Shown here: one piece after another, positions 18,594 through 64,000 of the stretch | How the letters are laid out: each line of letters opens with the position of its first letter | How positions within the stretch are numbered: the first letter of the stretch is position 1 | Source: Oryzias latipes | Taxonomy: Eukaryota > Chordata > Actinopteri > Beloniformes > Adrianichthyidae | Direction of reading: 5' to 3' | Assembly: GCF_002234675.1 (NCBI RefSeq) | Contig: NC_019870.2 | Span: 2,810,985 to 2,874,984, forward strand | DNA length: 64,000 nt | Notes under the pieces: model-generated | What the model saw: only the letters and a program-made list of their open reading frames with translations | The model's database searches: none | What the model was told of the DNA's origin: nothing | Translations under genes and position numbers: made by a program

Positions 18594-22752
<4,159 letters not shown>

Positions 22753-31232: not shown

Positions 31233-34200
31233 TCACACGCCCAGCTTGTTGGCTTGCGTCAGGACCACTTTCAGGACGGGCATGAACGCCGACGTCTCGC
31301 TGAAGTTGCTGTGGCTGACGATGTGGGTGTGGATGTTGAGGCTCTCCGTGTAGGACCGAGCCTCGATGCTCCTGGTGATGTTGTGAAGTCCGGTTATGAT
31401 GGGGGGAGAGAGCTGAGCAGCAGAACAGCAGCTGAGGTTAGTGGACAAGATTCTAATACTTAATAAATCAATCAATAAATACATTTCTTGGAAAGACTCT
31501 TAAGAATTGGACGGGTGTTAAGAGGAAAGCTCTAGTCTCTGCACAGGAGAACCTCAGGGCTTAAATGTGGAAGCCCATCCTTAAAAATACAGACGGTTCT
31601 TCTTAAGCTACGTACACACTGAGCATGTGTGGAACTCGCTGAGTGGGCGTTTTTTTTTGGCGGCATACGGCGTTTACACTGCGCTATTTGATGCTAGCGC
31701 ATGTACCTACAGTTGGAAGAGTTTTGGTCCAAAGTGTTGAAACAGAGCAAATCTGGTGAATCTCTCTCTCCAGGCTTTTTTTTTTTTCACAGCTCTATTT
31801 CGATACACGAAAGACTTAGAGCAGTGGCGGTTCTACACTGAATTACTGCATGGGCAAGACATTCTGCGAGCTCCTATTTGCTGAGCACAGCTGCAGAGGG
31901 CGCCGATTTGCTACAGTACAAGTCCAAACAGTACAAGATATAATAGGAAACCACAGAGGCGCAAATTTCTTTTCCCCAAGCTCTGAGCCGGCACCCCCTT
32001 TGAATTGGCGCCCCGGGCAACTGCCCATACCTAAAAGTTCAAGTATTTTAACTTTTAACGCACGTTCCGTGGCTGCGCGTTTTGTACGTGGAGCCCGGGA
32101 ACTGATGCAGCGACACTTGAGTTTTCTACATGGAAGCCTGCGTGCGTTTGAAAAGACTTTTCATTGGAAGTGGTCGCTCAAACGTATTTCTCAGCCCGGT
32201 GTGATCGTAGCATTATATGTAGATGACATTCATCTGTATCTTCAAGTCGAGATGACACTCCACTTAGTAACGTGATGAGTTTTCTGAGGCGCCTCACCGT
32301 CTGCTCCCTCAGTTTGTCGTAAAGTGCCTCCAAGCGTTTGCTGGCCTCGTCCAGCTTCCTCTTGGTTTGCTGTGATGAGACAAGAACCGGGTTACAAAGA
32401 GTTCATGCGATCGCTAGCGAACCACTTGGTCCTGCAGACTCACAGGGTCGGCAGCGACGGCCAGACACTTCTGGATCAGACTCTCAAAGGTGGTCTTCAG
32501 GATGAGGTGCTCCTCTGGGATGGGCTTCTTCAGGATCTTCTCTGCAGGGATGGACTGCAGCGGCTGAGGGACCAACACAAGGAGTCAGACTTTCATCACG
32601 ACGGACGCCTGCTGCAGAAACCGGGACTCGAAATACCTGAATCATGTCTCCTGTGGGGGCTCCTGGTGCTCCCTCCATGCTAGTGTTGGGCATTGCAGGG
32701 TTCACAGAGGGGGGGGTCAGCTGCTGTTGGTGCATGCCTGAAAAAGGGACCTGGGGACCTTGTGGGGCCGCCGGGGGAATCTGCTGAGCCATCGGGTCAG
32801 TGCCGAGCGGGGCCATGATGGGGGCGGTGATGGGGGCAGGGGGGGTGTAGTTTTCTGGAAGCTGCTGCACAACAACAAAAAGAGTGCTTTCAAAACCAGG
32901 GATCTAACAGGGTTCCCATAGGAGTTTTACAGGGCTCCTACAGGGTTCCCAAAGGAGTTTTACAGGGTGCCTACGGGGTTCCCAAAGGAGTTTTACAGGG
33001 TTCCCATAGGAGTTTTACAGGGTTCCCAAAGGAGTTTTACAGGGTGCCTACGGGGTTCCCAAAGGAGTTTTACAGGGTGCCTACGGGGTTCCCAAAGGAG
33101 TTTTACAGGGTGCCTACAGGGTTCCCAAAGGAGTTTTACAGGGTTCCCAAAGGAGTTCTACAGGGTGCCTACGGGGTTCCCAAAGGAGTTTTACAGGGTG
33201 CCTACGGGGTTCCCATAGGAGTTTTACAGGGCTCTTACATGGTTCCCAAAGGAGTTTTACAGGGTGCCTACAGGGTTCCCATAGGAGTTTTACAGGGTGC
33301 CTACAGGGTTCCCATAGGAGTTTTACAGGGCTCTTACAGGGTTCCCAAATGAGTTTTACAGGGTGCCTACGGGGTTCCCAAAGGAGTTTTACAGGGTTCC
33401 CATAGGAGTTTTACAGGGTTCCCAAAGGAGTTCTACAGGGTGCCTACAGGGTTCCCATAGGAGTTTTACAGGGTGCTACGGGTTCCCAAAGGAGTTCTAC
33501 AGGGTGCCTACGGGGTTCCCAAAGGAGTTCTACAGGGTGCCTACGGGGTTCCCAAAGGAGTTTTACAGGGTTCCCATAGGAGTTTTACAGGGTTCCCAAA
33601 GGAGTTCTACAGGGTGCCTACAGGGTTCCCATAGGAGTTTTACAGGGTTCCCAAAGGAGTTCTACAGGGTGCCTACGGGGTTCCCAAAGGAGTTCTACAG
33701 GGTGCCTACGGGGTTCCCAAAGGAGTTTTACAGGGTGCCTACAGGGTTCCCAAAGGAGTTTTACAGGGTGCCTACAGGGTTCCCAAAGGAGTTTTACAGG
33801 GTTCCCAAAGGAGTTCTACAGGGTGCCTACGGGGTTCCCAAAGGAGTTTTACAGGGTGCCTACGGGGTTCCCATAGGAGTTTTACAGGGCTCTTACAGGG
33901 TTCCCAAAGGAGTTTTACAGGGTGCCTACAGGGTTCCCATAGGAGTTTTACAGGGTGCCTACAGGGTTCCCATAGGAGTTTTACAGGGCTCTTACAGGGT
34001 TCCCAAAGGAGTTTTACAGGGTGCCTACGGGGTTCCCAAAGGAGTTTTACAGGGTTCCCATAGGAGTTTTACAGGGTTCCCAAAGGAGTTCTACAGGGTG
34101 CCTACAGGGTTCCCATAGGAGTTTTACAGGGTTCCCAAAGGAGTTCTACAGGGTGCCTACGGGGTTCCCAAAGGAGTTCTACAGGGTGCCTACGGGGTTC

Positions 34201-37200
34201 CCAAAGGAGTTCTACAGGGTGCCTACGGGGTTCCCAAAGGAGTTTTACAGGGTTCCCATAGGAGTTTTACAGGGTTCCCAAAGGAGTTCTACAGGGTGCC
34301 TACGGGGTTCCCAAAGGAGTTTTACAGGGTTCCCATAGGAGTTTTACAGGGTTCCCAAAGGAGTTCTACAGGGTGCCTACGGGGTTCCCAAAGGAGTTTT
34401 ACAGGGTTCCCATAGGAGTTTTACAGGGTTCCCAAAGGAGTTCTACAGGGTGCCTACGGGGTTCCCATAGGAGTTTTACAGGGTTCCCAAAGGAGTTCTA
34501 CAGGGTGCCTACGGGGTTCCCAAAGGAGTTCTACAGGGTGCCTACGGGGTTCCCAAAGGAGTTCTACAGGCTGCCTACGGGGTTCCCAAAGGAGTTTTAC
34601 AGGGTTCCCAGAGGAGTTTTACAGGGTGCCTACAGGGTTCCCATACGAGTTTTACAGGGCTCTTACAGGGTTCCCAAAGGAGTTCTACAGGGTGCCTACG
34701 GGGTTCCCAAAGGAGTTCTACAGGGTGCCTACGGGGTTCCCAAAGGAGTTTTACAGGGTTCCCATAGGAGTTTTACAGGGTGCCTACAGGGTTCCCATAG
34801 GAGCTTTACAGGGCTCTTACAGGGTTCCCAAAGGAGTTTTACAGGGTGCCTACAGGGTTCCCATAGGAGTTTTACAGGGTTCCCAAAGGAGTTCTACAGG
34901 GTGCCTACAGGGTTCCCATAGGAGTTTTACAGGGTTCCCAAAGGAGTTCTACAGGGTGCCTACGGGGTTCCCAAAGGAGTTCTACAGGGTGCCTACGGGG
35001 TTCCCAAAGGAGTTTTACAGGGTGCCTACGGGGTTCCCAAAGGAGTTTTACAGGGTGCCTACAGGGTTCCCATAGGAGTTTTACAGGGTTCCCATAGGAG
35101 TTTTACAGGGTGCCTACAGGGTTCCCATAGGAGTTTTACAGGGTTTCCATAGGGCTCCTATATTGTTTTCTAAAGGCTTCCTATAGGCTTCCAAAAAGGT
35201 TCCCATAGGTTCATCCAAGGTTCTTAAATAGTTCTTAAAGGGTTTATAAACAGATTTTATATAGATCTTAAAGAGTTTCTATATAGTTTCTTTAGGGTTC
35301 TTACAGGGTTCCTATTATGTTATTACAGGGTTCCTATAGGATTCCTAAAGGGTTCCCATAGGATATTTACAGGATTCCGTTAGGCTTCCTATAGGAGTTT
35401 TACAGGGTTCCGACAAGGTTCTTATAGGGCTCCTACTGAGTTCCAATAGGGTTCCTATCTAGTCCTCATAGGCGTCCAAAAGGGTTCCCATAGGTTCATA
35501 CAGGTTTCCTATGGGGTTCCTACTGAGTTCCAATAGGGTTCTTATAGGGTTCTACATTTCAAATTTCAAAAGCTAATTAAGGCCCATGAAACTGAATTTC
35601 CAGCCAAAATCCCCAGAGGTGGAAAAAGTACTTATGGGTGCTCTAGTAAAACAACTATCACATTGTTAAAATGCAACTAAAAGAAAAGCAAAATAACTGG
35701 AAGAAAAAGGAACTCAAGGAGAACAGATTCTTCTCACAATTCCAAGTTTTTAGTTATTTTTTGACTTATGATGCTAAAGGCGATTTTCTTTTTTTGCAGA
35801 TATCTGCAAACGAGTAAAAAGACTTCTTCACCTATTGTTTGTGAAAAATGCTAGAACTCAGCAAAGAGGTCTACCTAAAGTATTACAAGTAAACCAGAAC
35901 ATCCAACTTTAAAGCATGACGTTTGACAGCAGTTCCATAAATGAAAGAGGGAGAAACCTTAGAGTGAACAGCGACGGAACCACGTTTGAATCTGTTTAGT
36001 AACAGTCACACGCAGAACCATCCTTCACCCAAAAGAAAACAACTTGAAGGGTTCAAAAAGAACCAATTGTTCTGGATTTAGTGTGAAAATAGAAAAACAA
36101 ACTGATTTAAGAGTTAGAAAATATTCATCTTAACTGCAAATACATTCTTTATTGAAATAATTAGAACTTTCATTTCAAACCAACCCTTGTTGTAGATGTT
36201 TACAGGCTAAACTGCTTTCCAGGCAGCTGGTGTTAGACATTTCCCATGATCCTCGTGGGCTAGCATTAGCCAGTTTATTTGGCTGTATCTGAATTCCCTC
36301 ACTCCTCCCCAACTCCTAAAAACGTATCCAGTGGCCTGGATTTTAACATAATTCAGACACATGATCACTACGTTTGTTGTTGTTTTTTATCTTTTACGCC
36401 AAATACTTAGCTCTCACTTTTTATTACAAACGTTGCTATGAAATTCCACGTTTAAAGGTCAGTAAAGTCATTTTAAATTTCCTTAGGGATTATTAAAGAC
36501 CTATTCTATTCTTTTCGCACAAACTTTCTGAAAAACATTCAAACTGTCAAAAAAAAAGTTTGTAAAAATAAAAATCTAGAAAACAAAACAAAGGTTCTGG
36601 TATTTTTTTTTTAATAAAAAAACCTTTTACTTCAACTACCACAAGTCCTTAGGTGGGGGGGGGGGGGTGGATCTTTACCTTCTTCTTTGATGCATGGGTC
36701 AGGGATGGGGGGTCGTTCCAGCCATTCTGAGGTCCTGCAGAGAAAATAAATTCTGAAACACTTACATAGAGAAACATGTTTTCAACCCAATTTAGGAAAA
36801 AAAATGTAAAATTTCTGCAAGAATTGAAACCATGTATTAAAAAAATAATTAGAAAAATCTTGTGATCAAGTATGATCAGGTCACATGACCGGCATATAGA
36901 ATCTCACTTATTCACCGTACTCCTGTAAATCGTCTGTTCTCTTTCTTATCAGTTCCATTTACATTATTCATCTATGTTCTTTCCTCATCACTTGACATCG
37001 TTCTTTTGTTCATTTATCTTAATAGGATGATTAATTAAAAACATTCCAGCTTCTCTCAAATTTGTCATATTCTCTAACAATTCGTATACTTGGAAGCCAA
37101 AATTTTTCAAAAACATCTAGAGTTGTGTTTGCACGATAATACCGGTTTAGTAAATCTAAAAGGACAATTTTCACCTGATAGTTTTGCTCTCATCACTTGT

Positions 37201-48534: not shown

Positions 48535-51290
48535 TGTGGTGTCTCACCTGTGGAAGGTCAGCAGGCTTTTCAGCTAAAGCTGCTGAAATCTGCCAAACAA
48601 ACAGCCAAACGTCACACGAAGTGCTGAAAACAACAAGACGTTTCTGCAGGAGAACACGCTGATGTTCTGCTACCTTTGAGGCCAGTTCCTCTCTGTTGTA
48701 CCCGAGAAGTTCCAGGTATTTGCTGCGAACATCGCTCTCAAAATTAACCTAGAAAACAGAACATGGCCCAACTGAAGTATCACTGATTTAAAAAAAACTC
48801 TCCTGAAAGCGTTCTCGTTCAGCTCGTACCTTCAGGAAAGACCAAAGGGTTTTTTCAAACTCGTTTTCGGCGGCATCGATCTTCTCCTGGCAGAAACCTA
48901 CGAAGTTCCTGGAGCTGAGAGTGGCCTGAAGCTGCTCGGAGCGATCCAACAGGGCCGTTTCCGTGACGACCTGACTGATGTGCACTAGATGGGACGACGG
49001 CTGCTGCTGCTGCGGCTTCGCATTGTCCAGAGAAACCAGCTTTCCTCCGAACTGCCAGAGCGCAAGACGATAACACAAAGTATGAGGACATGAACGGCTG
49101 TGCACCTCCTGCACACCCGAGAAGACAAACAGGTTTGTATTACAGCAAACGAAGCCCCCACAGGGCGGCAGATCCACTTGGGGGGTTTTCTCAGGGGGAT
49201 GACGGAAGCTGGGGGGGCTGAGGTTTGGGGCAGCTGCAGAGGCGGTAAAGTCTGGCCCGTCCCAAAAGGATCCATGTTCCCGAAGGAGTTGCTGATCTGA
49301 AACAGGAACAATAAAAAATAAACTACAAGCAGCAAATCACTAAAGAAAATAAAAAAAACACCTTTTCCCTAAAAAGGGCAGCTTTTTCTCTTTATTTCAT
49401 CTCCATAGCCCTCCCCATACGGAGCAGCAAGTGAACGCCACGCAGCAGCAGAGCAGACCGACTTAACTCAGTTGAACAGGTGAGCTGAATGTTTATTGAT
49501 AACGTTCCAAATGTTTGGAAGCTCATTTGTTTGATTTACGATTTATTAAAGTTTTATTTATTGATGAATGGTTTGCAGGATCTCTGCAGATGTCCACCTG
49601 AATCCTTTCTTCCTCCATGAAACCAAGATCTCAAAGTCTGTGTGAAGCTTCTGTCTGAGGAGGAGCAGCACTTTCTGGCATTTTCAACGTTCTTCTGCTA
49701 ATACAACAGACTATTTTCATTCCTCTTTGTTGTTTTATGTTGAAACGGGGCGTTTCATCTGGAGGAGGGGGCATATGGAACCGTTTACACATTGGTGTTC
49801 TGTCCATGACAGGTTCATGACGTCAGGAGACAAATGGACTTCTGGGTATGTGGACGAAAAGGAAAATAAAGCATTGGTCCTCTACACCTAAACGTCTCTC
49901 TGAGCTCCTTATTTTACAGATGAAACTCCGCTTTACCGACACCCGGCTCCACTGACAACAATCTGATTTTGAGTCGTCAAAAGGTCCAGAATCTCTGTTT
50001 TTTAAACTTATCCGGAAATAAAGCCTCACAGAACGCTCCACATCTTTCATCTTCAAGCTAGGCTCTGATAAACAGACAACTTTGCTGTTTTTTCTTCGTT
50101 AATCTATGACTCGTAAATTTACGATATTTTTTCTCATAAATTTACGACTTAAGTCGGAATTACATTTTTTTTTTGTAAACTGGCCCTAAAACTCTGTCGT
50201 AGAAAGGAGATATTTTTTGGGGTCTAAGGTCAACCGCTCTTTGGTCGTGTTTGTAGACTGGACCGGCGGTGTGTGTGTGTGAAATTTTGTGAGGATTGAA
50301 CAAAAGCTTTCTTCTTCCCATGTTGTGCAAAAATATAAAAAAAGAAAAAAAATCACCAAATGTCACACTTTGCCACAACACGGCTGACAAATTCCTCCCA
50401 ACAAAAGGATGCAAATCATGAAAAGTGGGAACCGCAGACGGAACGCTCTGGCTCTGAAAGACCGGCACCTGGTCGGCGTGTCTCTGGCTCTGGGCCTGGT
50501 TGCTGCCGCCCATGATGGAAAAGATGTCGATGTGTCCGTCGCAGCCGGCGGCCGACAGCACCGCTGGGTTTCTGGGGCACCACTGGATGTCGAAGCACCA
50601 CTGGCTGCTTGTGGGCAGCTCGTACAGGACCTGCGGACCGGAGCGCACGCCTTTAAACGTCTGCAGAGGACATACGTGTTGACGGAGCGCCGCCGGGCGG
50701 GCCTCACCTCCGCCGTGTTGGGGTTCCAGCAGAGGATCCTGCTGTCCTTCCCGCAGCTCAGCAGCAGCTCGGGATCAGCCAGACTCCAGGAAATGGCCAG
50801 GATCCCCCTGCAGGTGGAAAACAGGTATTACAGGAGCCGTCACACGAGTCCAGCAGGTGAAGAAAGATGGAATAACTTTATTAGACCCCCAGAATTCAGT
50901 TTAGCTTTTATTTTTACTGCCCAATATTACAACAATACCGGTAATTAGTATGAAGTTCTCTAGCATTGAACAAAATAAAAAAAAAATCAAAGTGTGAGTA
51001 AATAAATGAAAATTGAAAATAGATAATAAAAACTATATAAATAAAAAAAACTAAATAAAAATTTAAAATATAAATAAGTAAAAAATAAATATATAAATGA
51101 AGATTTAAATCAAATAAATTTCTAAATAAATATTTAAAAAATAAAAGGTTAAAAAATTTACTAAAAATCTAAAAAAAAATTATTTCTAAATAAATAAATA
51201 TCTAAAATCTAAAATAGGTTAAAAAAACTATATAAATAAAAACTTAATTAAAATAAACTAAAAAACATAAATATTTAAAATATAAAATGG

Positions 51291-51344
<54 letters not shown>

Positions 51345-54089
51345 TAACATTTAGAATATAAATAGATAAAATATAAATAAAAAAATATATATAAATAAAA
51401 TATAAATATTATAAAACACTGGAGGCGATAGCGTCCCTTGAAAAGTGTAAACGCCACTCGGAAGTTCACTACGATTCTCGCAGACAGTCGCCAGCAAAAC
51501 CAGCCAACTTTAGTGTGAACTAGATAGATAGGCATGATTGTGGATACGATTGCTGTGAAGCATAAACCGGGCTTTAGGCGAGCACAAGTGAGTCTCGCAG
51601 TTCTCTATAACAGAGTTTATCAACCTTTTTTGAGCCACGGCACACTTTAACCTTGACAAAAATCCCGCGGCACACCAGCATCCAAAAATTTAAAAAAAAA
51701 AGAGAGATATTCACAGTCTGTATTGATGTACAGCCCCTCCACAATCTCACATGCATTTTTGTGATGATTGTGGCAGAAAAAAATGGAAGCTGCAGCTGTT
51801 TTTTGTAAAAGATGTAACATAGGTTAAGTTAAAGGATTTAAAAACTGTTTGATGTGTGTTTGTTGTGGTTTCAAGACGTTCAACAACGAAGATTCATTAT
51901 GCGCCGAGACGCTTTCACTTTGTTCCAATGCATCATGGGAGATGTAGTGCGAAAGCAGCTGCTGATGGCAGAAAGACTCTCGTCTCTGAGCTTCATTGTT
52001 TTGTTCACTTGTTCCACGGTCTGATACCGGATTCTGTGGAAAGCTACACCGCTAAAGACGAGCTTTAGCTGGTATTTTTGTTAGAACTGAGCGACTTTAC
52101 GAGCTAAATCGGGACAAGGAAGTGAAGACTTGAACCACTTCTGATTGGTCAGACTGATGACGTGTGATTAAGCCTCCAAGAAAGATTGGTGGAGACAGTT
52201 AAAGGGGCGGGACTTTTCCAAAAACAGCTGAAGCTACGGCTAAATCGGGGTACTGTCATTCTTATCAAAATGTCTTTAATAGAATCAAATAAACACAAAG
52301 AAAAAAGTGATTGAACACAGAGCTGATATCCTGGAGTTAGAAAATGTTTTTAGATCAGTTAATGAGGGCAATTTCCCACAGCACTCCTGACCATCTCCCA
52401 CGGCACACTGGCTGAAAAACACTGATCTAGAAGCCGCACGCCCACCTTATGGGACGTTGGGAAAATAGACCGCACCATTTCCGCGGAACTGAAGTAGCGC
52501 GTACTGATGACGTACGGTGTGCTTACGCCTGCGGTGGCCTAACAGGAGAGTTTACCGTGTGTGATGCTCTAAAATCTTCAGAGGAGAGGTGGCGAAGCGT
52601 AGATCCCACATCTGGATGACGGGCATCCGGTCGTCCTCCGAGGCCAGAACCAGCTGCGTCGCCACCTCCGGGTTCCAGGCCAGGCTGGAGCAATGCATCT
52701 GTAACAGAGTCTGGGGTGAGAGGCAGGCTGGAGCGCTGCGGGGAACCGGAGGGTCGCCAAACGTACCCTGTTGCTGTGGTCGCTGACTTTGATGATGAGG
52801 TCGTTCTTTCGGAGGTCCCACACGGACGCCCGGCCGCTCGGGCTGGCGGACGCCAGGATGTGCTGGACCTGCCGGTTCCACGCCACGCAGCTGATGTCCT
52901 CCAGAGGCTTGAGGTCCAACGCGGAGAAGTCAGAACCGTCACAGATGTGGTACAAGTTCACTGAGGGGAAAGCTCTTACCTGAGTTTTGGGTCCCGGCGT
53001 CATTGGAGATCCAAAGTTGTTCATGTCCCAGATAAAAATTTCAGACTCGTTCCCGCCTGACGCCACCAGGTTTGCCTGAGGGAGGTGAAAAAAAACCCCA
53101 CAAATGAAGTCAGGATCTTCATTTAAGCCGGATGTAAGTTAGCAGAACCGATCGGGTCGTCACCTGGAACGGGTTAACGTCCAGAGCCCTCACCGGCCCC
53201 GAATGCCGATCGCTCTCCGTGATGACAACATCGCTCTTTCCCGCCATGATCCTCGCCGGGTCGTACAGGATCACATTCCCGTTCTCGCCGCCTGCGATCA
53301 GGACGCCGGCTGGGTGATTCTGGGAGTCCATGCCGAAGGGGCCCCAGACCAGCTTGTAGTATCTGTAGGGGGAGGAGGGGCGAACAAGGCAGTTTAGGGT
53401 CCAGTTAAGTAGGAAAAAAGAAGAATGTTTAGTTTCAGCTGTTATGCTTTGAAGGGGAAAAAAACCAAACATTTATGAACAAATGAGGGAATAACTTATG
53501 GAATCCGCCTTCACCAATCAGGAGTGAGCTTGTTGGAAGGCCACACCCCCACCACTTGAAAGCGGGCCACACGAAATCTGTCAGTCGTTTGTTTTTATTT
53601 TATTGAGGCATTTGTCAGGACTTTGACAAACTGTCCACATGTGAACAGGGAGAACAGCAGAAGGACGGAGATCCAGTGCCGATGCTCCAAGAGTCAGAGG
53701 AGCTGCTCCTGAGGAGTTCTCTACCTGTGAGCGGAGGAGAAGGAGCCGCAGGACTTCATGTCCAGCGTGGGATCGGCCAGGTCCAACTCGAAGAACTCCA
53801 GGGAGGCATTGGTGCTGAAAGAGGCGTCCAGCTGCTGGGCGGACGTTCCTGCGGGAGAGGTGGTCGTTCAGGTCACAGAAAACCAAATCCAATCCAAACT
53901 ATTGCATGCACAGACAAAAGACTCCTTTAAGAATATTTCAGCAGATAAATCTCAGACATGCGAGTCCTAAAAGAAAGGAGACTCCCCCAAAAACCTCCTC
54001 AGTCCCACACCTGTGGCAAGGTAAATGGGGTGGTGCTGCGCCGGGCTCCAGCTCTGGATTGCTGTGCGGTTGACCTCTTTGAGCTTCAT
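31233..54089 (-). CDS. sec31a: SEC31A, COPII outer coat subunit
   Basis: Forms the outer COPII cage with SEC13 at ER exit sites and stimulates SAR1 GTPase via SEC23. There are 27 coding exons: 54,089-54,011; 53,848-53,725; 53,362-53,164; 53,075-52,980; 52,907-52,767; 52,698-52,556; 50,807-50,708; 50,630-50,469; 49,296-49,144; 49,051-48,830; 48,748-48,674; 48,589-48,548; 45,832-45,584; 45,488-45,392; 42,883-42,705; 42,629-42,503; 42,431-42,286; 41,432-41,259; 40,525-40,352; 40,176-40,066; 39,834-39,732; 38,673-38,320; 36,734-36,679; 32,864-32,637; 32,563-32,444; 32,369-32,298; 31,412-31,233. The sum is 3,906 bases, 1,301 aa (human about 1,220). WD40 repeats span residues 1-350 ([37 protein letters not shown]), the alpha-solenoid about 480-835 ([20 protein letters not shown]), the Pro-rich region about 836-1,180 including [10 protein letters not shown], and the C-terminal domain ends [20 protein letters not shown]. 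The extra length lies in an acidic linker (residues 513-627) and a Pro/Ser exon (966-1,083). Confidence 0.95.
31600..32280. repeat. Unassigned repeat-like block in the last sec31a intron
   Basis: Fills the final intron. It contains 'gctacgtacacactgagcat' and 'ggcgttta cactgcgc'-like text typical of the ends of fish DNA transposons, and 'ggcgccccgggcaactgccc' in the middle. Similar words ('gtgtaaacgccactcg') occur in inverted orientation at 51,435-51,455. Ends were not resolved. Confidence 0.35.
32900..35550. repeat. Minisatellite built from an 11-bp unit, 33-bp and 22-bp higher-order units
   Basis: About 2.65 kb in the sec31a intron between coding exons 23 and 24. The core (32,905-35,150) is made of three 11-mers, gggttcccaaa (or ...ccata), ggagttttaca and gggtgcctacg, arranged as 22-bp pairs or 33-bp triplets in irregular order. 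The right flank (35,150-35,550) keeps the 11-bp rhythm with strongly diverged units such as gggttcctata and ggcttcctata, as expected for the ancestral unit. The core copies are nearly identical, so that part expanded recently. It reads without stops for hundreds of codons on the plus strand, which is a by-product of the repeat and not a gene. Confidence 0.97.
36280..36480. repeat. Interspersed repeat, copy 3 of 3
   Basis: 'attccctcactcctccccaactcctaaaa' followed by 'taattcagacacatga' parallels 1,203-1,289. It lies in the same sec31a intron as the minisatellite. Only part of the family unit is present. Confidence 0.45.
43749..45008. mobile_element. Inverted-repeat (foldback-type) DNA element, 1.26 kb
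   Basis: The arms at 43,749-43,883 and 44,873-45,008 are inverted copies of each other over about 135 bp with few differences. Both contain 'ttttccaaagtagctttgtt', 'gttgctgtttttcacaatgg', 'cgtatttatttcatgaagag' and 'gaatgggtctttctgtcaat'. The interior is about 990 bp and has no transposase-like frame. It lies in the sec31a intron between coding exons 14 and 15. The outermost arm base is TTTTTTCAGAA; I could not fix a target duplication because the left flank is itself a T-rich repeat. Confidence 0.8.
47178..47510. repeat. Interspersed repeat, gene-poor type, copy 2
   Basis: Matches 15,860-16,420 in order over many blocks ('cttgtagcatttttctcatgatgg', 'agcctggggttgtgag', 'gctgtaagctagcaggag', 'cccgcccacaattcaagagg'). 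A LINE tail at 47,515-47,765 directly abuts it. Confidence 0.6.
47515..47765 (+). mobile_element. 5'-truncated LINE, L2-like 3' end
   Basis: The stretch from about 47,517 translates to [20 protein letters not shown], then [20 protein letters not shown] and a stop, the conserved C-terminal end of L2-type LINE ORF2 proteins. A short 3' UTR follows, ending 'aaagtgctttataaataaag' and then (TTGAG)n, the usual tandem tail of these elements. The element is severely 5'-truncated, as is common for LINE insertions, and lies antisense to sec31a in an intron. Confidence 0.75.
48503..48532. repeat. (AT)n microsatellite next to a sec31a splice donor
   Basis: Fifteen AT units, beginning only 15 bases inside the intron that follows the 42-bp coding exon 48,589-48,548. 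Confidence 0.95.
49430..50201 (+). mobile_element. Truncated copy of the 58.6-59.9 kb element family
   Basis: Matches 58,790-59,594 in the same orientation over about 770 bp ('cagcagagcagaccgactta', 'ttgaacaggtgagctgaatg', 'ataacgttccaaatg', 'cttcaagctaggctc'). The right end reads GGCCCTAAAACTCTGTCGTA at 50,182-50,201, the same terminus as the other copy. The left terminal repeat is missing, so the element is 5'-truncated or partly deleted. It lies in a sec31a intron (between coding exons 8 and 9). Confidence 0.75.
50965..51420. repeat. AT-rich low-complexity block with (AT)n
   Basis: Long (AAAT)-like degenerate sequence with a 48-bp (AT)24 run at 51,293-51,340, in a sec31a intron. Confidence 0.85.
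51611..52424 (-). mobile_element. hAT-type non-autonomous DNA transposon, copy B (inverted)
   Basis: Reverse-oriented copy of 3,888-4,714 and of nearly the same length (814 bp). The ends are CAGAGTTTATCAACC and GGCTGAAAAACACTG, more diverged than copy A. The flanks ctctataa and atctagaa agree at six of eight positions, consistent with an old 8-bp target duplication. The ZNF143-like site is kept as CAATGCATCATGGGA at 51,926-51,940. It lies in the sec31a intron between coding exons 6 and 7. Confidence 0.8.
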
Positions 54090-58561: not shown

Positions 58562-59863
58562 TACGACGGAGTTTTAGGGCCACGGTGAGGAAAAAAAATT
58601 CTGCCCAACATGACGAGATTAAAGTCGTCATGTCGACTTTAATCTCGTCATGACGAGAAAAAACTCGACACAAAGTTTCGAGAAAAAACTCGTCCTGTCG
58701 AGATAAAAGTCGAAATAAAGTTTCGAGATTAAAGTCGCAATGTTGCGCGCGAGAGAAAAAAAATCGTAAATTTACGAGATTATTGTGGAAGTGAGCAGCA
58801 CGCAGAGCAGCAGGTGATCGCCGTGCAGCAGCAGAGCAGACCGACTAAACTTTGTTGAACAGGTGAGCTGAATGTTAATTGATAACGTTCCAAATGTCTG
58901 GAGGCTCATTTGATTGATTCACAAGTTATTAAAGTTTTATTTATTGATGGTTGGTTTGCAGGATCTCTGCAGCTGTTTGCTTGAATCCTTTCTTCCTCCA
59001 CCAGAGACCAGATATCTATGTTTGTGTGATGCTTCTGTCTGAGGAGGAGAAGCACTTTTTGCCATTTTCAACGTTGTAATGCTAATATAACAGACTATTT
59101 TCATTCATCTTTGTTTTTTAATGATCAAACGGGTCGCTTCATCTGCAGGAGGGGGCGTATGTGACACTGTTTACTTCCGCATTGGTGATCGGATGACAGA
59201 TTCATGACGTAATGTGACAGATGAACTTCAGGTTATGTGAATGAAAAGGAGAATAAAGGCTGCAGCGATCCTCTACACCCAAACGTGTCTCTGAGCTCCC
59301 TATTTTACATATCAAAGTCCGCTTTACTGACACCGAACCCCGGAAAGACGGCTCCACGGAAAATAATCTGATTTTGAGTCGCCAAAAGGCTCAGAATATC
59401 TTTGTTTTAAACCTATAATCCGGAAATAAAGCTTCACAAAAGGCTCCACATATTTCATCTTCAAGCTAGGCTCCGATAAACAGACAACTTCTGGGTTTTC
59501 TCCTTGTTAATCAATGAACTTTTTCCCGTAAATTTACGAGTTTTTATCTCCTAATAAAATTAGTTTTTTTTGGTGGCCATAAAACTCTGTCGTAAACTCT
59601 TAAATACAAAGCCACTAGCTCACTAACATTAGCCATAACACTGAATATTCCTGAAAGACTCAGCTTCACTGCTCTCGCACAACATTTCGACTTTAATCTC
59701 GAAACTTTATTTCGACTTTTATCTCGACACGACGAGTTTTTTCTCGAAACTTTGTGTCGAGTTTTTTCTCGTCATGACGAGATTAAAGTCGACATGACGA
59801 CTTTAATCTCGTCACGTTGGCCAGAATTTTTTTTCCTCACCGTGGCCCTAAAACTCCGTCGTA
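58562..59863. mobile_element. Long terminal-inverted-repeat DNA element, composite, 1.3 kb
   Basis: The arms at about 58,562-58,755 and 59,674-59,863 are inverted copies of about 190 bp with only a handful of differences. Both begin TACGACGGAGTTTTAGGGCC. The element is flanked by the direct repeat GTTTTAG (58,555-58,561 and 59,864-59,870), a 7-bp target duplication. Inside each arm there are further palindromes, for example gacgagattaaagtcg, a 6-base spacer, and its complement at 58,612-58,649. The interior carries a second, older terminus ending at 59,594 (ATAAAACTCTGTCGTA), so one family member appears nested within or recombined with another. No transposase frame is present. Confidence 0.88.

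Positions 59864-60323: not shown

Positions 60324-60360
<37 letters not shown>
60324..60360. repeat. Poly-G run of 37 bases
   Basis: An uninterrupted run of 37 G on the plus strand. Homopolymers of G this long are rare in vertebrate DNA and are hard to sequence and assemble, so the true length may differ. Confidence 0.9.
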
Positions 60361-61451: not shown

Positions 61452-64000
61452 TCAGCAGTTGATGGAGGCACTGTCGGCTTTGGCCTTCCCCGCAGAGGTG
61501 ATGATGTTCATAAGGCAGTGTCCGAACTCCTCCAGGATCAGCCGCTCCGCTTCGCTCGTCAGCTGATCCGTCTGCTCGGCTCTTCTGGCCTTGTCCAGCA
61601 GACACTCGCACGTCGCCTCCACCACCTCCTTCGTTAGGAACGTGTACGGAAGCCTGCGGGGAACAAGACTATCATGACTCTGAATTTCTGATGTTTGTCG
61701 ATTATTAATATTGTTTTTTTTTAATGCAAGCTCCTGTTCTTTGTTGCATCATCATCCTGAAAAAAAGATCCTCAAACCCGCTTTTATGCAATTTCCACAT
61801 TAATCTGCTTTTCAAAATCTGTATTGACAAAGAAATAAACACATTAAAAATATTTTCTTTTAAGCTGTCTTTTTAATTATTTACCATTTATGACAAAGAA
61901 CTTATTTTTATCCCATAGCTTGTTTTTAGCCGTCTTATATTTGAGCTATTTAGCCTAAAGCTTCGTACTGTAAACACAAATTCATCTTAGCTTAATGAAA
62001 ACTACTGAACAAGATTAAGATTTAAAAAACATGTTTTTTTTCTTTTCGACTTTATTTCCCCCAAAAAGTTTGACTTTTATATCCACACCACCATTTTCCT
62101 TTATTGGGGCATTTTTCCACATTTTTTGTTTTATTTAGCAGAACAATAAAAAACTGTTGATGAAAAAAACAACATATTTTTTTAACTTTATTTAACATTT
62201 CACACTTTTTTTCCAGTCGTCTTAAATTGAGATTTTGTGCTATTTTTTTGCATCGCCTTGTTTTCCTGTTTTCTGGGCCGTTTTTCCTAATTTTCTAGAT
62301 TTTTGTGCTGTCTTGTATTTAGCAGAACAATAAGCATGCAATAAGGGCAACTAACCTTAAATATAGAATTTAACTTAGCTCTTTTTTTAGCTTCGCTGAA
62401 CATTACACACTTGTTCTTGAACCCACAGTGACATCAGCGTAACAGAAAAATGTCAGAAAAGTTTGTCCACTTGGTTTGCAGTAAATACACACAATCTTAT
62501 TTTGAAGGAAAAATGGGTTTGGGTTCTTATGAGTTAAATAAAGATTTAATAATAAGTTTAAATATTTCTCATAATCAATTCCCCTCGTTTTGGAATTTTC
62601 TAAATTTTTAAGGTTTTCCCTCTACGAATCAAATTTACCCTTAACCCAACCTTTTTTTTTGCTTTTGACATTACATACTCTTTTTCAGCTGTCCTACATT
62701 TTTTTGGCAGCCATAACTTTTTGCAGTAATACCCAAAAAAAAGATGATATGAGTCTGATCTGAATAATTTTTCTGTTTAAAGCAAGAAAACAGCATCAGA
62801 AGGCCAGAAATGTGTCGATTGCTTATGTATTTGTGAGTCAACAGGAGTCTTAAATGCAGAAAAAAAAGGTTTTGGTGTAACATTTTCAGATAAATAGAGC
62901 CCAAAACCATTTTCTTTGTTTATTTCTCATCCGTGTAAAGTTCTCCAGGCGTTTCCGGAGTTTTCCGGCAGCGGTTCTCACCTCCCGCTTCCGCTGGAAA
63001 TGACCGGAGTGGTCCTCATGAGCAGGTCTGAGATCTGCGAGGACAGCTTGGTCTTTGCTGCCGTCTGCTGCTGAACCCTCACTTCTGCTGCGTCCGCCAG
63101 GTGCATCAGCGTCTTCCTCTCCGGGCTTTCCTCAAAGTTTTTGCACCCGATGCATTTGCATATGGATGAGCACATGATCTTTGCCTTGGAAGAAAGAAAT
63201 GTAAACACGATTAATGCTTCAGCAGTTTTTTTTTGTATGTCCCTGCTGCCCTGGTCAAAGCTTCACGGCACAAATTCGTAATAAATAAAGAAAAAGAAAA
63301 TCTTAAAATGGCAACTTTTCAATTAGTTTATCTCCATAGCAACCATTTACTTTCTTGGTTGCCTGGGGGTGACGAACAGGTTCATGTAATTTTTAGAAGA
63401 ATCGGCAAAAGTACATTTGTGGATTTCCTTAGCAACAGAGGTTTCTTATTAACCACACCCACATTCTCATGTATTAAAATCACGTTATATCGTTTTTTTT
63501 AGCTTGAGTCATTTATTACGCTTTCACAAGTACCAAAAATGCCAAAAATTCATTTTCACTGGGTACAAGATGCGTTCGAATTTAGTGAAGTTTTTGCGTC
63601 TGTGGCGCTTAAATGCGAAGAATAAAAAAAACAAAACAATCTGGTCCTCGTCTTCCGGACGGCTGCGGAAGAGAATATAGCAGGAAAGACTTAGCAGAGA
63701 TGGTGAAAGGGGGAGCAAACGCACCTCGTAGCACTCGCAGTAGTTCTTCAGGCAGCCCGACCGCTTGCAGTTGCAGCCTTTGCTGTGGCGGCGGTCGGAC
63801 TCGCCCTCCTTCCCTTTACCGATTTTGGGTTTGAAGGCCTCTGGATTTCGGTCCAGACACGTCTGCAGAGACACATTTTCCATCAGGAGAAGCGGGGACT
63901 GGAAAGCGCACAAAGCGACCGCCAAACCCCACCTTGATGGCTTTGAGGCGCTCCGTCTCGTGCTCCAGGTTGTTGAAGCAGTTGTTGCAGTTGCACATGT
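61452..64000 (-). CDS. lin54: LIN54, DNA-binding subunit of the DREAM/MuvB complex, 3' part
   Basis: Nuclear protein that anchors MuvB/DREAM to CHR promoter elements of cell-cycle genes through its two cysteine-rich (CXC) domains. Four coding exons are visible on the minus strand: from beyond 64,000 to 63,933; 63,862-63,725; 63,184-62,982; 61,653-61,452 (stop at 61,454-61,452). The first carries the end of CXC domain 1 ([17 protein letters not shown]). The spacer is [24 protein letters not shown] domain 2 has [18 protein letters not shown], then [20 protein letters not shown]. Next come the helical [17 protein letters not shown] region and a C-terminal domain ending [19 protein letters not shown]. 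The Cys pattern and the DNA-contacting Tyr-containing loop (KNYCECYE) are intact. The N-terminal two thirds lies off the right edge. An interspersed repeat sits in the intron at 63,200-63,500. Confidence 0.95.
63200..63500 (-). repeat. Interspersed repeat, short family, copy 3 of 3
   Basis: Inverted relative to the copies at 4,735 and 27,150. Recognisable blocks are 'tatctccatagcaaccat' (complement of atggttgctatggagata), 'ggcaaaagta' and 'ttaaccacacccacattc'. It lies in a lin54 intron. Confidence 0.55.

Follow-up and report, generated by a model that had tools for sequence, protein, structure and literature searches.

The window analysed here, a stretch of 64,000 nucleotides on contig 12 of the medaka Oryzias latipes, carries on its minus strand exons that we assign to sec31a, and a tandem array lies within one of the introns that they bound (Table 1). 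For the exons flanking the array, the assignment rests on their strand, on their open frames and on what we take to be a resemblance of these C-terminal exons to SEC31A; searches with the C-terminal exons gave no Pfam family and no PDB match, except a hit to a designed protein at E 0.2. Upstream on the same strand, WD40 exons (~53.4-52.6 kb) match the chain named Sec31A (7sul_A) with E 3.4e-76. The location of the array in a sec31a intron, proposed when the sequence had been read by itself, is borne out by a GT/AG intron between open minus-strand exons and by this WD40 match. On the sense (minus) strand, the array ends about 40 nt upstream of the 3' splice site of the intron. The acceptor beside it (32862-32870, minus strand) reads CAGCAG, a tandem (NAGNAG) acceptor which could add or drop one glutamine.

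Table 1. Features of the array and of its host intron (positions in the window).
Feature	Position	Strand	Description
sec31a exon before array	36679..36734	-	open frame and splice motifs
sec31a intron holding array	32865..36678	-	3814 bp, GT...AG; splice motifs and open frames
sec31a exon after array	32637..32864	-	open frame and splice motifs; translation ...GDMIQ
Core of minisatellite	32907..35158	+	205 units, nearly all 11 bp; TRF, unit fit, parse
Old diverged edge	35159..35552	+	36 units, 32 of them 11 bp; still in 11-bp step
Seed-like 22-mer in edge	35390..35411	+	one base from a core 22-mer
Duplicated block, copy 1	33043..33670	+	self-alignment to copy 2
Duplicated block, copy 2	33701..34352	+	self-alignment to copy 1
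77-bp (7-unit) tandem	34195..34502	+	identical at 34195, 34272 and 34349; fourth, at 34426, matches 74/77

Elsewhere in the window, TRF reports a (CTAT)n microsatellite of ~45 copies (22222-22402), 37 consecutive G on the plus strand (60324-60360), a degenerate AT-rich array with periods 2, 4, 14 and 23 (51016-51416) and two short arrays of 20-bp units (58609-58667 and 59769-59806, ~3 and ~2 copies), which have CATGACGA(G/C)ATTAAA in common. Upstream of sec31a and also on the minus strand, an open frame with a cysteine-rich motif (63527-64000) is presumably LIN54/tesmin-like.

Units, composites and blocks of the array

The array spans positions 32907-35552 (~2.6 kb), where a cyclic 11-position fit places 241 head-to-tail units, 234 of them 11 bp long, six 10 bp and one 12 bp. 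TRF describes it in overlapping rows, with period 33 over 32907-35145, period 22 over 32907-35552 and period 11 over 35275-35552, to which periods of 55, 121 and 154 are added. Self-identity at lags 11, 22 and 33 amounts to 0.54, 0.65 and 0.80 in 32907-35145, and to 0.60, 0.61 and 0.61 in 35146-35552. The maxima reached by dinucleotide shuffles of these two segments (500 each, lags 5-99) are 0.30 and 0.38, and since the lag identities exceed those of every shuffle, the 11-bp step is real in the core as well as in the edge. A core period that is not a multiple of 11, which the sequence-only reading had named as evidence that would go against it, does not appear, the top 20 lags in the core (among lags 2-299) being multiples of 11 without exception. 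TRF, the unit fit and the comparison of lag identities with shuffles concur in confirming what that reading had described, a hierarchical minisatellite with an 11-bp step and composites of 22 and 33 bp.

Seven recurrent 11-mers account for the core, together with 12 singletons (205 units in all): TACAGGGTTCC (46 units), TACAGGGTGCC (42), TACGGGGTTCC (27), CAAAGGAGTTT (25), CATAGGAGTTT (24), CAAAGGAGTTC (23) and TACAGGGCTCT (6). They fall into two classes, which we call the TAC class and the CA class, and follow each other in a fixed grammar, a TAC-class unit being followed by a CA-class unit and then, optionally, by a second TAC-class unit. After singletons, or private variants, and short units had been folded into their nearest or parent types, as was also done for the count of repeated words given below, the core could be parsed into 51 three-unit (33-bp-type) and 25 two-unit (22-bp) composites, with two units left over at the right end. 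The three distinct 11-mers from which the array had at first been thought to be built are therefore broadly correct, except that they represent two classes, with seven recurrent sequences in all. The expectation that the plus strand would stay open in rotating frames is likewise roughly right, open stretches in the core reaching 266 aa, but the frames are closed by 27 stops, namely 26 TAG, each within CATAGG, and one TGA. A protein-coding repeat was rejected on account of the 127 stops that the core carries on its minus (sense) strand and of the position of the array between the GT and the AG of an intron.

The order of the units, which had been taken as non-periodic, is not simply so. The longest non-overlapping repeated word in the core extends over 34 units, while in 1000 bigram-preserving shuffles it averaged 11.3 units and never exceeded 20; as not one of the 1000 attained 34, blocks have been copied, and not single units alone. 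A block of ~630-650 bp, roughly 60 units, is duplicated. Its two copies differ by 3 substitutions in the initial ~600 bases of their alignment, by 4 mismatches in the tail and by three gaps (22, 1 and 1 bp). A 77-bp piece is found three times without any change. This copying of multi-unit blocks as wholes, visible in the 34-unit word, in the duplicated block and in the 77-bp copies, is what characterizes higher-order repeats. At the level of units, the best lag identity is 0.38, a value within the range of 300 bigram-preserving shuffles (maximum 0.47, mean 0.34) and hence evidence against a single, regular long-range period.

Age structure and local origin

The edge has TATAGGGTTCC as its consensus, and its 32 units of 11 bp share a mean pairwise identity of 0.62. 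In the core, the corresponding value is 0.905 when TAC-class units are compared among themselves and 0.903 for CA-class units; it is only 0.68 over all core 11-mers because the two classes differ. A young core beside an old edge, as the sequence-only reading had it, agrees with these identities of ~0.90 and 0.62, and the lag-11 self-identity of 0.60 in 35146-35552, with 32 of 36 edge units at 11 bp, upholds its description of a diverged flank that keeps the 11-bp step. Its further suggestion, that expansion proceeds from one side, fares less well. When the core is divided into thirds, the 12 singletons are distributed as 6, 0 and 6; the chance of an empty middle third is (2/3)^12, ~0.008, by a simple binomial, and it rises to ~0.04 with eight events, if the boundary units at 32907, 35137 and 35148 are dropped and the neighbours at 33467 and 33477, which adjoin and may be one event, are counted once. 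Of the two copies of the duplicated block, one lies in the same middle third, as do most of the 77-bp copies that are identical. Because it contains none of the 12 singletons, the most recent copying was probably in the interior of the array and not one-sided, a reading that has few variants behind it.

When four 22-mers of the core were compared with the edge, their best matches there had 3, 1, 2 and 3 mismatches, and the best of them was chosen after the data had been seen. For this best candidate, the only one for which a null was run, 1 in 5000 column-shuffled edges was equally good. The edge 22-mer is possibly a surviving relative of the seed from which the core grew; it could also be a core unit that was converted into the edge.

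Whether such an array belongs to its locus or to a dispersed family is a matter for the whole genome, which has 734,051,031 bases in 25 contigs. The 33-mer pattern, with at most 3 mismatches, was found in at least 71 places, and all of the 71 are in the array (the reversed control gave 0). The ancestral 22-mer, at the same tolerance, occurs in at least 24 places, 23 of these 24 in the array; the single place outside (contig 8, n=1) does not exceed the 2 obtained with the reversed pattern as control, and no tandem repeat is reported by TRF in the surrounding 3022 bases. When 35146-35650 was used as a DNA query, at least 12 matches were returned, 12 of 12 in the array, with a single candidate place scored. 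Since these searches skip very common words and score the best candidates only, a diverged relative could be missed; as far as they reach, no second copy was found of the kind that the sequence-only reading had expected in the case of a satellite scattered over the genome. A satellite DNA family with many large arrays was accordingly rejected, no second array having been found in the 33-mer, 22-mer and edge searches. The matches found, which are lower bounds, are those of a minisatellite at a single locus, and they favour local expansion over a dispersed satellite.

Minisatellites can arise inside mobile elements, and the array might have been inserted from elsewhere as a satellite or a transposon-borne repeat. 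As far as this assembly and the searches go, the distribution just described (71/71 for the 33-mer, 12/12 for the edge with its one candidate place, 23/24 for the 22-mer) makes such an arrival very improbable. It deserves still less credence, to the point of being barely conceivable, that the length or the order of the array is in part an artefact of assembly: so long an array, in which 77-bp copies are identical, would be hard to assemble, but the unit order includes distinguishing variants, and the array is flanked on either side by open sec31a exons.

DNA shape and RNA

The proximity of 11 bp to one helical turn had led to the idea that the array might show unusual curvature or nucleosome behaviour. 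Among nine periods tried, the WW/SS periodicity does peak at 11.0 bp, with a value of 107.8 in the core. In 147-bp windows, the core stands at 9.18 and the rest of the window at 1.91 for a period of 11.0 bp, and at 6.82 and 2.03, respectively, for 10.75 bp; at 10.5 bp, the core (2.18) equals the background (2.21), and at 10.0 and 10.2 bp it is below it. Helical phasing gains no support from these values because the signal at 10.5 bp is that of the background. That the array would be an intrinsically curved or nucleosome-organising element is extremely unlikely, in spite of the strong power at 11.0 bp and the raised power at 10.75 bp, power at 11 being inevitable in any 11-bp tandem array.

A selected role in splicing, in which GGG triplets of the sense RNA or donor-like GTAAA and GTAAG words near the 3' splice site would tune the reaction, is an unlikely explanation too. 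It could invoke the position of the array so close to the CAGCAG acceptor, and the 79 GGG runs, 55 GTAAA and 7 GTAAG present on the sense strand of 32907-35552, but the counts add no evidence, since any array of this unit contains such words of necessity. The folding of the RNA does not help it either, one 300-nt piece per strand being only ~1.0 and 1.3 SD more stable than its 100 base-shuffled versions. The G-quadruplex pattern of G3+ runs with loops of up to 7 or up to 12 had no match on either strand of the array. The array is probably neutral.

Relatives, growth and significance

Higher-order repeats of satellite DNA, as in alpha satellite, consist of a short unit duplicated into nested larger units. 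The sec31a array also nests duplications of a short unit into larger ones, but it is one genic locus of 2.6 kb, whereas alpha satellite forms large centromeric arrays. It is also comparable to minisatellites or VNTRs, whose units are of 6-99 nucleotides by definition (PMC2688266), a range that includes its head-to-tail 11-bp step and its composites of 22 and 33 bp, tandemly arranged over 2.6 kb in a single intron, although its layered order is more elaborate than that of an array made of a single unit. Complex (mosaic) tandem repeats are built from several units (PMC10502081, PMC10118999), and the sec31a array, with its seven 11-mers in two classes, similarly interleaves several unit types. 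In the human survey of loci of at least 500 bp, as summarized in PMC10502081, complex arrays mostly have units below 10 bp and it is the single-unit arrays that are mostly minisatellites, unlike the sec31a array, which interleaves several types of 11-mer. Human MSY1 is alike in having variant repeat types in an ordered array, with copying between misaligned sister chromatids as a proposed mechanism, and synthesis-dependent strand annealing between sister chromatids has been proposed to account for changes in its structure and length; as outlined in that source, however, MSY1 is made of long blocks of a single type (1, 3, 4), whereas the sec31a array alternates in a fixed order, and mutation of MSY1 was measured, whereas change in the sec31a array is inferred (PMC2599865).

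A description of the array was not found in the literature searched (titles and abstract openings). To see how common such arrays are, 20 stretches of 10,000 bases were sampled from this genome, on contigs 1-10 (200,000 bases in total, including 2,155 N), in which TRF gave 42 rows. A minisatellite that reaches 1 kb accounts for one of them (unit of 84 bp, length 1,073 bp, close to the end of its stretch), and an (ATGG)n-like array of 893 bp falls just under that 1-kb threshold. Finding one in so small a sample suggests that minisatellites of 1 kb or more are not rare, and the sec31a array is longer than any array in the sample. For medaka, tandem repeats are given as 1.7% (PMC2688266). The sec31a array is ordinary in kind, if attractive in detail.

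All these observations are best explained, and with high probability, by a nested (hierarchical) minisatellite that was born locally in the sec31a intron and is probably neutral. An 11-bp array of TATAGGGTTCC would have arisen and then decayed, after which a 22-bp piece of the decayed array, similar to that of the edge, would have been re-amplified by slippage. Unequal exchange or strand-annealing repair would then have copied larger in-register blocks, the latest probably in the interior. The nested pattern would result from this combination, with slippage at the level of single units and, for larger blocks, exchange in register or repair by strand annealing. The abrupt end of the array so near the 3' splice site may reflect the loss of variants that would damage splicing. 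Its continuing growth and its ancestry we infer from one genome, and it is on the same single-genome basis that its length is probably variable between fish.

The array leaves what is known of such repeats unchanged. It is valuable as a clean example, in which the steps of the growth of a minisatellite are still readable from the order of its units, and as a candidate length marker in a fish that is probably kept as a laboratory species. A more ambitious reading, which we regard as tentative and rather doubtful, is that the array preserves the successive layers of its growth, from 11 bp to 22 and 33 bp and on to 77 and ~650 bp, with a near-copy of its seed kept in the edge. If strains were to differ by whole in-register blocks, one could read from the array how a minisatellite is born again out of the remnants of its own decay, in this case with a splice site restraining it on one side.
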